DNA of 53,345 nucleotides, taken from assembly GCA_001914535.1 (NCBI GenBank), contig MNCR01000096.1, forward strand, positions 27,433 through 80,777, written 5' to 3'. The stretch comes from Candidatus Rokubacteria bacterium 13_2_20CM_69_15_1. Lineage in GTDB: Bacteria > Methylomirabilota > Methylomirabilia > Rokubacteriales > CSP1-6. A model generated the notes under the pieces. It was given only the letters and a program-made list of their open reading frames with translations, did not search any database and was not told the origin of the DNA. The position numbers and the translations under genes are program-made. Position 1 is the stretch's first letter, and every line of letters begins with the position of its first letter. Below are positions 6,789 through 10,335 of this stretch, piece after piece.

Positions 6789-7295
6789 GTGAAATGCCCG
6801 TTTTGCGGCCACACGGAGGATCGGGTCGTCGACTCGCGGGTTGGGCGCGACGGCGAGTTCATCCGGCGCCGGCGCGAGTGTCTCAAGTGCCACCGGCGGT
6901 ACACGACCTACGAGTACATCGAGGACGTCCTGCCGCACGTCGTCAAGCGGGACGGCCGTCGTGAGCCCTTCGACCGCCAGAAGCTCCGTGCCTCGATTCT
7001 GAGGGCGTGTGAGAAGCGGTCGGTCGGCGTCCAGGCGGTCGACGATGTCGTCGGTGAGATCGAGTCGCAGCTCCACGACCGCGCCGAGAAGGAGATCTCC
7101 AGCGAGGAGCTGGGGAAGATCGTGATGGAGCACCTCCAGAAGCTCGACCCCGTCGCCTACGTCCGTTTTGCGTCGGTGTACCGGAAGTTCAAGGACGTCG
7201 GCCAGTTCGTCGACGAGGTGAAGGGGCTCCAGAGCCACGACAAGGCCAAGGCGGCGCCCGTCGTCAAGCCCAAGGCGGTCGCCAAGGCGAAGTAG
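6789..7295 (+). CDS. nrdR: Transcriptional repressor NrdR
   Basis: NrdR senses ATP/dATP through an ATP-cone and represses ribonucleotide reductase genes. The 168-residue protein starts at a GTG giving MKCPFCGH. The zinc ribbon uses C3, C6, C31 and C34, with the conserved VVDSR and RRRRECLKCHRRYTTYE stretch. The ATP-cone (about 49-139) has VVKRDGRREPFDRQKL and YVRFASVYRKFKDV. The tail after residue 150 is Lys/Ala/Pro-rich and longer than in most NrdRs. A GAGGGGG stretch 10-15 nt upstream of GTG serves as ribosome binding site. The glyA-nrdR order is common in bacteria. Confidence 0.96.
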   Translation: MKCPFCGHTEDRVVDSRVGRDGEFIRRRRECLKCHRRYTTYEYIEDVLPHVVKRDGRREPFDRQKLRASILRACEKRSVGVQAVDDVVGEIESQLHDRAEKEISSEELGKIVMEHLQKLDPVAYVRFASVYRKFKDVGQFVDEVKGLQSHDKAKAAPVVKPKAVAKAK

Positions 7296-7323: not shown

Positions 7324-8193
7324 CTATCGCGTCGCCAGGAACACGCCGGCGATCGCGAGGACGGCGCCGACCAGGTGATAGAGGTGGGCCACCTCACCAA
7401 CCAGGAGCCATGTCAGCGCGATCACCACGAAAGGCATCAGGTTCATGAAGCCGGCCGCCCGCCCCGGGCCGATGGCGCGTACCACTGCGTAGTACCAGAC
7501 GTGCGCCGGCGTCACGAGCCCGGCGCAGTAGAGCACAACGGCCCAGCCGAGAGGCGCGGCGAACGGCGAGCGCCAGGGCTCGACGGCGGCCGCCAGCGGG
7601 ACCAGGACGAGCGCGCTCACGACGTGGGCGCCCGCCATGACCCACACAGGCGGAAGCTGGGACGCGGCGGCCCGGCTGTAGAGCGAGTAGGTGACCCAGA
7701 GGCTTTGCGAGGCGAGGATGATCAGGTCGCCGCGGTTCACGGAAAAGGTCAGGAGGACGTGGAGCGAGCCCTTCGCCAGGGTCGTGAGGACGGCGGCGAC
7801 GGTGAGGGCGATGCCGAGCCAGTTCCGCGCGCTCACCCGGTCGCCCAGCAGGGCGCTCGCCCCCAGCGCGACGAAGATCGGGGAGGTCGCGCCGAGGACC
7901 CCGGCATTGAGCGCGCTCGTCTGGCGGAGGCCGAGGTACCAGAGGGTCGTGTTGCCGACGAGGCCGGTGAGGCCGAGGATGACGAATGCACGATAGTCGC
8001 GCAACGCCAGCGGGTGGCTCCGCGGAGCGGTGACTCGCGCGATCACGAGCAGGATCGGCGCGGCGATGAGGGCGCGGCCCGCGGTCAGCGTGAGGGGCCC
8101 CAGTTCCGCGAGCGCGAGCTTCCCGAGCGGGAAGTTTCCCGCCCAGAACGCGATTACCGCGAGGAGCAGGAGATAGGCGCGACGCTCACTCAT
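7324..8193 (-). CDS. EamA/DMT-superfamily transporter
   Basis: This 289-residue inner-membrane protein has about ten hydrophobic segments in two EamA halves (first ending near SALLGDR, second near LVGEVAHLYHLVG), the layout of drug/metabolite transporters such as amino-acid exporters. The substrate cannot be read from sequence. The ATG at 8193 starts MSERRAYLLLL, right before TM1. An in-frame ATG at 8289 would add 32 acidic residues and is judged unlikely. The AGGG ribosome-binding candidate (8201-8204, 7 nt upstream) lies inside the 3' arm of a 10-bp hairpin, and a lysine-rich micro-ORF precedes it, so translation is probably regulated. Confidence 0.87.
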   Translation of the reverse strand: MSERRAYLLLLAVIAFWAGNFPLGKLALAELGPLTLTAGRALIAAPILLVIARVTAPRSHPLALRDYRAFVILGLTGLVGNTTLWYLGLRQTSALNAGVLGATSPIFVALGASALLGDRVSARNWLGIALTVAAVLTTLAKGSLHVLLTFSVNRGDLIILASQSLWVTYSLYSRAAASQLPPVWVMAGAHVVSALVLVPLAAAVEPWRSPFAAPLGWAVVLYCAGLVTPAHVWYYAVVRAIGPGRAAGFMNLMPFVVIALTWLLVGEVAHLYHLVGAVLAIAGVFLATR

Positions 8194-8198
8194 GGCAC

Positions 8199-8229
8199 GG
8201 CCCTGTCGAAGCGGGAGCACGACAGGGCC
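8199..8229 (-). promoter_or_regulatory. 10-bp hairpin sequestering the transporter ribosome binding site
   Basis: On the minus strand GGCCCTGTCG (8229-8220) pairs perfectly with CGACAGGGCC (8208-8199) around an 11-nt loop. A second small stem GCGCC-GATGA-GGCGC (8246-8232) lies just 5'. There is no U-run afterwards, so it is not a canonical intrinsic terminator. The 3' arm contains the AGGG located 7 nt before the transporter ATG. Confidence 0.6.
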
Positions 8230-8246
8230 GGGCGCCTCATCGGCGC

Positions 8247-8285
8247 TTACTTCTTTTTCTTCTTCTTCGTCGCCTTCTTCTTCAC
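8247..8285 (-). CDS. 12-residue lysine-rich micro-ORF (leader peptide candidate)
   Basis: Starting at GTG (8285) the frame reads MKKKATKKKKKK then TAA (8247-8249): nine lysines in twelve codons, eight AAG and one AAA. It has an unusually good ribosome binding site: AGGAGG (8298-8293) with 7 nt spacing, part of AAGGAGGTG. A promoter with TTGACA and TAGCAT lies 49-77 nt upstream. The stop is directly followed by two hairpins and then the DMT transporter. This looks like an expressed leader peptide or microprotein. The same DNA read in the transporter frame gives an acidic Glu-rich extension, but its ATG would have only 3 nt spacing to AGGAGG. Confidence 0.6.
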   Translation of the reverse strand: MKKKATKKKKKK

Positions 8286-8333
8286 TCATTCACCTCCTTC
8301 TGGGCACGTTTACGCAGCACGCTTCTGCTCGGC

Positions 8334-8362
8334 ATGCTAGTAAGGGGTGGACATCGTGTCAA
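8334..8362 (-). promoter_or_regulatory. Strong sigma70-type promoter for the micro-ORF/transporter
   Basis: On the minus strand, TTGACA (8362-8357) is separated by exactly 17 nt from TAGCAT (8339-8334). The predicted start is near 8327, giving a leader of about 40 nt before the micro-ORF. It is back to back with the promoter of the radical SAM gene (8440-8468). Confidence 0.65.
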
Positions 8363-8517: not shown

Positions 8518-10335
8518 ATGAGACGCACCCTCAAGAAGCTTGTGTTCGTCGAGCCCAAGTCGACGCACCTGCACATCTATAGCCGCGTCTGCATCCCGCG
8601 GCTCGGGTCCGTCCTGCTCGCGACGATCATGCGGGCGAAGGGGTACGACGTCCGTGTGTACATCGAGGACATCCATCCAATCGACATGAGCGAGGTGCTC
8701 TCCGCCGACCTCGTCGCGATCTCGGCCATCACGTCCACGGCCCCGCAATCCTACCGGCTGGCCGACCAGGTGCGGCAGGCGGGCGCGGTCGCCGTGATCG
8801 GGGGCACGCACACGAGCTTCCTGCCCGAAGAGGGTCTCGAGCACGCGGACTTCGTCGTCCGCGGCGAGGGCGAGTTCGCGTTCCAGGAGCTCGTGGACGC
8901 GATCCAGGCGGGCGACGGGTTTGCGAAGATCCAGAACCTGTCCTACCTGATGGACGGCCGCGTGGTAAACAACCCGGAGCGCCCGAAGATCCCGAACCTC
9001 GACGTGAACCCGATCCCGGACTACCACCTCATCACGGGCTGGAAGCCGGGCGGAGTCATCTCGGTCGCCACGTCGCGGGGCTGCCCGTTCTCATGCACCT
9101 TCTGCTCGGTTCCGGGCATGTACGGCCACGCGTTCCGCACCCACTCGGTGGAGCGCGTGCTGGAGGAGCTGGAGAGTCACCGGGGGAACCTCTACACGTT
9201 CTTTGCCGACGACATCTTCACCGCGAACAAGAAACGCGTGAAGGAGCTCATTCGCGGGATGATCGAGCGGAACCTGACGCCGCAATGGGGTGCCCAGGTG
9301 CGCACCGAGACCGTGGACGACCCGGAGCTCCTCGAGCTCATGCGCGACTCGAACTGCTTCAACGTCTACGTCGGCTTCGAGTCCATCAATCCTCGCACGC
9401 TCAAGCTCTTCAACAAGAAGCAGGATCTCGGCAAGATCGAGCGCTCGATCGAGCGCTTCCACGACTACGGGATCAGGATCCACGGCATGTTCGTGGTGGG
9501 TTCGGACGAGGACGACGTGGAGACGCTCGACGCCACCGCGGATTTCGCGCTCAAGCACGACATCGACTCGATCCAGTTCATGATCATGACGCCGATCCCG
9601 GGCTCGCCCGACTACGACACGATCTACGCCCACGGCGAGAAGTACATCATCAGCCGGAACTGGCAGTTCTACGACGGCCACCACGTCGTCCACCAGCCGC
9701 GCCGGCTGAGCCCGTACGAGCTCCAGGTCGGCGCGATCCGGGCGATGGAGAAGTTCTACTCTTGGCGTGGGATCGGCCAGAAGCTCCTCAAGCGCGACAT
9801 CTACTACGCGACGATCCGGTACTGGGGCAAGAAGATGATCCGCCAGTGGTGGAAGAACGAGGAGAACCGGGCCCACGTCGCGTGGCTCAGGGCGCAGCTC
9901 TACGAGGACGCCACCGAGCTGGGCCACGGCGCGGTGAAGACGGTCGCCCTGCCGGCGCTCCTGCTCCAGGACTCGCTCGGCCGCCTGCTCGAGCGTTTCC
10001 TTGCCGAGCTCGGCGTCAAGGTGGTGCCGCTGGCCGAGGCCGCTGCGGAGGGCGGGAAGCGGGCGCGGGAGACCTTCGATTGCCTGATCACGCCGATCGC
10101 CAAGCGCGCCGCGCAAGAGCGGGAGGAGTTCCACGCCCGCCTCGCGGCCGTGACCGCCGCGCTCCAGACCCACTGGGAGAAGCTGCCGCGGGTGAGCTTC
10201 CCGCTCGTGGACGGTCAGGGGCCCGTGTTTGAGCCGTTCGCGAAGATCGGGCTCCTCGTGACCAAGAACCTGGACCGCATCCGGGAAGCCTACAAGACCG
10301 CGGGCGTGGCGGAGGGGCTGTGGGAGGCCGCGTAA
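8518..10335 (+). CDS. B12-binding-domain radical SAM protein
   Basis: This 605-residue protein has an N-terminal Rossmann-like cobalamin-binding-type domain (about 1-165, with IPRLGSVLLATIMRAKGYDV and IGGTHTSFLPEE) and a radical SAM core whose cluster cysteines are C189, C193 and C196 in RGCPFSCTFC, followed by FFADDIFT and GFESINPRTL. A helical region of about 150 residues after residue 450 matches nothing I recognise. The family includes methyltransferases and ring-modifying enzymes (BchE, hopanoid and methylthio-type enzymes), but the substrate is unknown. The ATG at 8518 is chosen for its GGGGAG site and domain start. The gene is monocistronic. Confidence 0.88.
   Translation: MRRTLKKLVFVEPKSTHLHIYSRVCIPRLGSVLLATIMRAKGYDVRVYIEDIHPIDMSEVLSADLVAISAITSTAPQSYRLADQVRQAGAVAVIGGTHTSFLPEEGLEHADFVVRGEGEFAFQELVDAIQAGDGFAKIQNLSYLMDGRVVNNPERPKIPNLDVNPIPDYHLITGWKPGGVISVATSRGCPFSCTFCSVPGMYGHAFRTHSVERVLEELESHRGNLYTFFADDIFTANKKRVKELIRGMIERNLTPQWGAQVRTETVDDPELLELMRDSNCFNVYVGFESINPRTLKLFNKKQDLGKIERSIERFHDYGIRIHGMFVVGSDEDDVETLDATADFALKHDIDSIQFMIMTPIPGSPDYDTIYAHGEKYIISRNWQFYDGHHVVHQPRRLSPYELQVGAIRAMEKFYSWRGIGQKLLKRDIYYATIRYWGKKMIRQWWKNEENRAHVAWLRAQLYEDATELGHGAVKTVALPALLLQDSLGRLLERFLAELGVKVVPLAEAAAEGGKRARETFDCLITPIAKRAAQEREEFHARLAAVTAALQTHWEKLPRVSFPLVDGQGPVFEPFAKIGLLVTKNLDRIREAYKTAGVAEGLWEAA

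Follow-up and report, generated by a model that had tools for sequence, protein, structure and literature searches.

The leader peptides of the trp-, his- and thr-type attenuators are encoded by short open reading frames that are rich in codons for a single amino acid and are followed by hairpins in the transcript, and the small lysine-coding frame studied here, which we call the K-ORF, resembles them in both respects. Its product, the K-peptide, can also be compared with proteins of the microvirus protein J type, which are small, Lys-rich, DNA-binding and able to neutralise polyanions. This likeness is a lead only: J-type proteins are viral and are packaged with single-stranded DNA, whereas the K-ORF is chromosomal, occurs in several copies and is syntenic across an order. 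The Lys-rich disordered tails of bacterial histone-like proteins have a similar KAAKK-type composition and bind DNA through their charge, but the K-ORF encodes nothing beyond such a "tail", and there is no folded domain.

A further point of comparison is provided by bS22 (AURKAIP1/COX24, PF08213), bL37 and eL41 which, like the K-peptides, are very small, highly basic and long went unannotated in several genomes; basic residues make up 55-65% of bS22 and eL41 (PMC10085706, PMC10618245). bS22 differs in that it has about 31 residues and contains arginine (for example MGSVVKKRRQKMSKHKHKKLLKRTRHQRRKK in a relative from family f5), whereas the K-peptides are mostly 10-13 residues long, consist of nearly pure lysine with alanine and threonine, and are encoded by several gene copies per genome. 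A search of open-licence papers turned up no account of peptides like these from Rokubacteria.

An earlier note on this locus had proposed that lysine-tRNA charging, sensed by translation of the frame, controls a downstream DMT transporter, and had offered as an alternative that the peptide is a microprotein with its own role. The comparisons below argue against the first proposal and for the second.

Layout of the unit

The window, by which we mean the whole 53,345-nt stretch of DNA that was analysed, carries the unit on its minus strand, where direct reading of the sequence places it at 8362-8198 (Table 1). Promoter, AGGAGG, 7-nt spacing, GTG, 12-codon frame and two hairpins were all found where the earlier note had put them, and a promoter scan also picks TTGACA-N17-TAGCAT, for which the expected number in shuffles is 0.0. 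The 12 residues are encoded as GTG AAG AAG AAG GCG ACG AAG AAG AAG AAA AAG AAG TAA, and this run of AAG and AAA codons is conspicuous because the window has a GC content of 70%.

Both hairpins lie 3' of the stop codon and neither overlaps the frame in the minimum-energy fold; jointly they reach -35.7 kcal/mol, compared with -21.2 +/- 2.8 in shuffles (z = -5.1). The AGGG of the transporter (8204-8201) sits in the 3' arm of hairpin 2, as previously described, although the stem has 11 bp rather than 10, and the reported lack of a U-run 3' of this hairpin in the window was borne out. An Rfam covariance-model search of the whole window gave no match at the gathering score, and a known riboswitch or RNA family was rejected on that basis. 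In the neighbouring gene, the window's NrdR was seen to carry a C-terminal Lys/Ala/Pro-rich tail (KAKAAPVVKPKAVAKAK) that extends past the match to the NrdR family model.

Table 1. Positions of the unit and of its neighbouring genes in the window.
Feature	Position	Strand	Evidence or remark
Promoter TTGACA-N17-TAGCAT	8334-8362	-	promoter scan
TTGACA	8362-8357	-	followed by a 17-nt spacer
TAGCAT	8339-8334	-	
Shine-Dalgarno AGGAGG	8293-8298	-	7 nt 5' of GTG
K-ORF	8247-8285	-	GTG start (8285-8283), MKKKATKKKKKK, TAA
Hairpin 1 (GCGCC-GATGA-GGCGC)	8232-8246	-	5 bp; fold
Hairpin 2 (CGGCCCTGTCG...CGACAGGGCCG)	8198-8230	-	11 bp; fold
EamA/DMT transporter	7324-8193	-	PF00892; ATG 8193-8191; variable neighbour, outside the conserved unit
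nrdR	6789-7295	+	TIGR00244 over cut-off; convergent neighbour, defines context A
B12-binding radical SAM protein	8518-10335	+	PF04055 and PF02310; divergent conserved neighbour

A recurrent family of lysine-rich peptides

Searching the window's own genome with the leader revealed a second site on a different contig, where the identical 12 residues are written with other synonymous codons (ATGAAAAAGAAGGCGACCAAGAAAAAGAAGAAGAAGTAG behind GGAGGAGGTGA) beside rpmB. When the 12 residues were searched as a degenerate pattern within the window's family, 6 of 57 genomes had an exact match and 24 of 56 a match with up to three mismatches. Of 95 genomes from the phylum, 63 contain a strict pattern (GGTGA-N5-18-KKK-N3-12-KKKK-stop), while the reversed pattern, used as a control, gave 0 matches; in Pseudomonadota the strict pattern occurred in 0 of 399 genomes. 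The order, a group of uncultured soil bacteria (Rokubacteria), is represented by 60 genomes from families f1-f4; a strict match is missing in just four of these, two of which (G006 and G022) hold variants, and a K-ORF is present in 58, the exceptions being G025 (82% complete) and G079 (64% complete). In all, about 145 sites were collected, in 125 distinct DNA versions that encode 58 peptides. A genome usually carries between one and three copies, placed at two conserved loci, and a Shine-Dalgarno sequence of the GGAGGTGA type is present at every collected site. The peptides range from 10 to 23 residues, have the consensus MAKKKATKKKKK and after the start contain only K, A, T, G, R, S, V and P. 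Because the same peptide appears with other codons elsewhere in the genome and recurs across the phylum, and because the reversed pattern has no matches, the K-ORF is more than a chance frame; as judged from these searches, the family is real.

The sites fall into recurrent gene neighbourhoods. In context A (39 sites), a divergent B12 radical SAM gene is followed by the K-ORF, sometimes by a DMT transporter gene, and then by convergent nrdR; promoter, Shine-Dalgarno sequence, K-ORF and hairpins recur as one self-contained unit in these 39 syntenic loci of related Rokubacteria-type genomes. In context B (91 sites), which is found across the order with fixed synteny, an AbiEi_2-type regulator gene (PF09952) is followed by a single K-ORF or, often, by two in tandem, and then by convergent rpmB. 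This regulator is a conserved stand-alone gene and lies about 25-70 nt 5' of the K-ORFs at most context-B loci (for example L002 1561-2650, minus strand). The 15 remaining sites belong to families f7-f9 and are mostly K-ORF pairs preceded by an HTH gene and a HEPN gene; pairs of this kind, with toxin-antitoxin-like neighbours, were seen at L100, L101, L103-L106 and L167. A K-ORF beside rpmB was not found in families f5-f10.

Two further observations concern mobile or viral DNA. In one f9 genome (L102, around position 1510), a K-ORF whose peptide is identical to that of the window lies near a transposase-like frame, which would reflect either transfer or misbinning of the contig. In viral contigs, most of the 38 pattern matches are either out of frame or the tails of longer reading frames, and a phage origin was rejected for this reason; a few are short frames (L185, L201), and short frames rich in Lys and preceded by an SD-like site, such as MACKKKKGKKKK and MGCKKKGKKKK, were noted in L173, L185 and L201.

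Selection on the peptide

When nearest neighbours are compared, synonymous codon differences number 126 and non-synonymous ones 44, where 17-28% synonymous would be expected without selection; the pairs overlap and the sites were picked as Lys-rich, so that p-values from this test are too small, yet the excess is still large. The differences at codon positions 1, 2 and 3 number 26, 30 and 138, respectively. On this evidence, purifying selection acts on the K-peptides, which form a family of polycationic microproteins.

Hairpins and partner genes

Hairpin 2 is kept in 37 of 37 aligned context-A units and is nearly invariant (L010 and L055, which have divergent 3' regions, were omitted from the alignment), and each genome has about one copy of it, at the context-A locus. 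For hairpin 1, similar GCGCC/GGCGC arms are seen in many context-A units, in an alignment that is too unclean for pairs to be counted. One pair of hairpin 2 varies, being U-G in 26 units, U-A in 7 and C-G in 4, and so always pairs in the K-ORF transcript; on the opposite strand, the same position would read A-C in the 26 cases. Because this variable pair always pairs on the K-ORF strand, hairpin 2 most likely acts in the K-ORF RNA, and the sequence comparison makes it most likely that it forms the 3' end of the K-ORF mRNA. A generic, genome-wide terminator motif was rejected in view of its occurrence about once per genome at this locus. A terminator role at the context-A locus is possible, and the near-invariance of the hairpin exceeds what a simple terminator needs, so that in context A an RNA role may be superimposed.

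Pressed further, this line of thought would make the context-A transcript a dual-function small RNA that works mainly through hairpin 2, by base-pairing or by protein binding, with the peptide secondary. The locus-specific, nearly invariant and strand-consistent hairpin is what such an RNA would lead one to expect; but selection plainly acts on the codons, the peptide recurs in other surroundings in context B and in f7-f9, and there is no Rfam match, so that we regard a mainly RNA-based function as rather unlikely.

The genes 5' of the tandem copies raise a different possibility, namely a toxin-antitoxin-like or defence module that includes AbiEi_2 or HEPN genes. This would account for the position of the context-B copies behind an AbiEi_2-type gene and of most f7-f9 copies behind HTH and HEPN genes. 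It is nevertheless improbable, as context A has no such gene, no toxin partner was seen, and the context-B locus is present order-wide with fixed synteny, unlike most mobile toxin-antitoxin pairs.

Codon choice in the lysine runs

In E. coli, consecutive lysines slow ribosomes, and iterated AAA codons lead to sliding whereas AAG codons give full-length product (PMC4363877). Among 742 Lys-Lys pairs in the K-ORFs, AAA-AAA was observed 0 times, compared with 5.9 expected from codon shares. Because iterated AAA causes sliding (PMC4363877) and AAA-AAA does not occur, codon choice would favour completion of the peptide, and its avoidance thus favours productive translation. It bears equally on the idea that translation of the lysine run reads lysyl-tRNA supply or ribosome state and thereby controls the stability of its own transcript. 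Poly-Lys synthesis is slow, and the context-A transcript would consist mainly of K-ORF and hairpins, as such a sensor would have it; however, the avoidance of AAA-AAA and the interspersed Ala and Thr residues point to smooth full-length synthesis, and a conserved downstream target is lacking, which leaves charge sensing quite improbable.

Independence from the transporter

The promoter (TTGACR, 16-19 nt, [TC]ANNNT) is matched in 38 of 39 context-A units, and at most of these loci nrdR comes next, the transporter being absent, broken or a remnant. The K-ORF is intact where the transporter is frameshifted (L009), internally deleted (L091) or reduced to a remnant (L139, L142), and in G006 the reverse is seen, with the transporter retained and the unit deleted. 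Among loci selected by nrdR that have the radical SAM gene adjacent and no K-ORF, L085, L092 and L095 are clean deletions and L088 is decaying; in L088 (G061), the interval between the radical SAM gene and nrdR retains hairpin 2 and has lost the ORF stop and part of the lysines. Where the transporter start is kept, it lies 54-202 nt from the K-ORF in a varying frame relation, and in context B the only downstream gene is convergent.

Because unit and transporter each occur without the other, and because spacing and frame vary, these comparisons rule out a conserved attenuator, and an attenuator for the DMT transporter was rejected on this double dissociation. The proposal that stalling on the lysine codons opens the hairpin and switches on the transporter had rested on real features: MKKKATKKKKKK behind AGGAGG is a short frame with a codon run for one amino acid, it lies 5' of the transporter, hairpin 2 covers the AGGG of that gene, and runs of lysine do slow ribosomes in E. 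coli (PMC4363877). Unlike the trp, his and thr leaders, however, the K-ORF has no conserved regulated gene downstream in either context A or context B, its minimum-energy fold contains neither a U-run terminator nor a hairpin overlapping leader codons, and copies occur at unlinked loci. Control of the transporter by lysine-tRNA charging is therefore very improbable.

The window's transporter itself has its nearest named relative in a Candidatus Rokuibacteriota MAG (86% identity). Its frame is also open back to ATG 8289, with the acidic reading MSEEEGDEEEEKEVS..., and because it is so only in the window and the genus-mate G002, the K-ORF stop closing it in other transporter-bearing relatives, this reading is, by comparison of the frames, incidental; an acidic N-terminal extension from ATG 8289 was rejected as the frame is not conserved. 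That the K-ORF is chance low-complexity sequence, or such an extension in another frame, has next to no standing despite the open acidic frame, given recurrence at unlinked loci, selection and the control searches.

Discussion

From its sequence organisation, 8362-8198 is almost certainly a small gene complete in itself, comprising a promoter of its own, a strong ribosome-binding site, a 12-codon ORF and 3' hairpins. We put at roughly 0.6 the probability of the overall reading, in which it is a free-standing K-peptide gene whose polycationic product binds polyanions and whose hairpins end or stabilise the mRNA. The alternative offered in the earlier note, that of a microprotein acting in its own right, agrees with the conserved promoter, Shine-Dalgarno sequence and hairpins and the selected frame. 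By composition and codon test, the K-peptides are very short, strongly basic, disorder-promoting and under selection, and because they consist mostly of Lys, interrupted only by Ala, Thr, Gly, Ser, Arg, Val and Pro, they could hardly be enzymes or membrane proteins. Binding of polyanions is predicted with moderate confidence: the peptide would neutralise or bridge cytoplasmic polyanions, with rRNA on the ribosome as the first candidate and DNA or other RNA as the second, and for the 3' hairpins the likeliest role would be to terminate the short mRNA or to make it more stable. By analogy, our best guess is that the K-peptides bind RNA or DNA, and perhaps do so on the ribosome.

The distribution of bS22 bears on this guess. 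A six-frame search found bS22 (PF08213) in 0 of 47 genomes of the order, and K-peptides gave no match to the COX24_C profile of PF08213 in these 47 genomes. Outside the window's order, most families of the class do have bS22, which was found in 15 of 15 f5 genomes, 7 of 7 f9 genomes, the one f10 genome and several f7 and f8 genomes. The 15 bS22-bearing f5 genomes have no K-ORF by the strict pattern, and some f7-f9 genomes hold bS22 and K-ORFs together. Loss of bS22 in the order may have been one single event. The distribution suggests a ribosomal role for the K-peptides as a lead, not as proof, and the more specific idea drawn by analogy, that they are ribosomal or ribosome-assembly microproteins which replaced part of the rRNA-neutralising job of bS22 after its loss, is tentative and on balance unlikely. 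If true, a near-homopolymer of 10-13 residues would be among the smallest ribosomal proteins known.

As far as comparison of sequences goes, the best description of the locus is as a member of a new family of poly-lysine microproteins that was first read wrongly as a transporter switch. The family is deeply conserved and lies at the lower limit of gene size, where length cut-offs in gene calling normally discard such ORFs. It shows that bacteria can have near-homopolymeric poly-lysine as a gene product under selection, and its synteny, its copy number and the contrast with bS22 make it a concrete test case for the role of minimal polycations.
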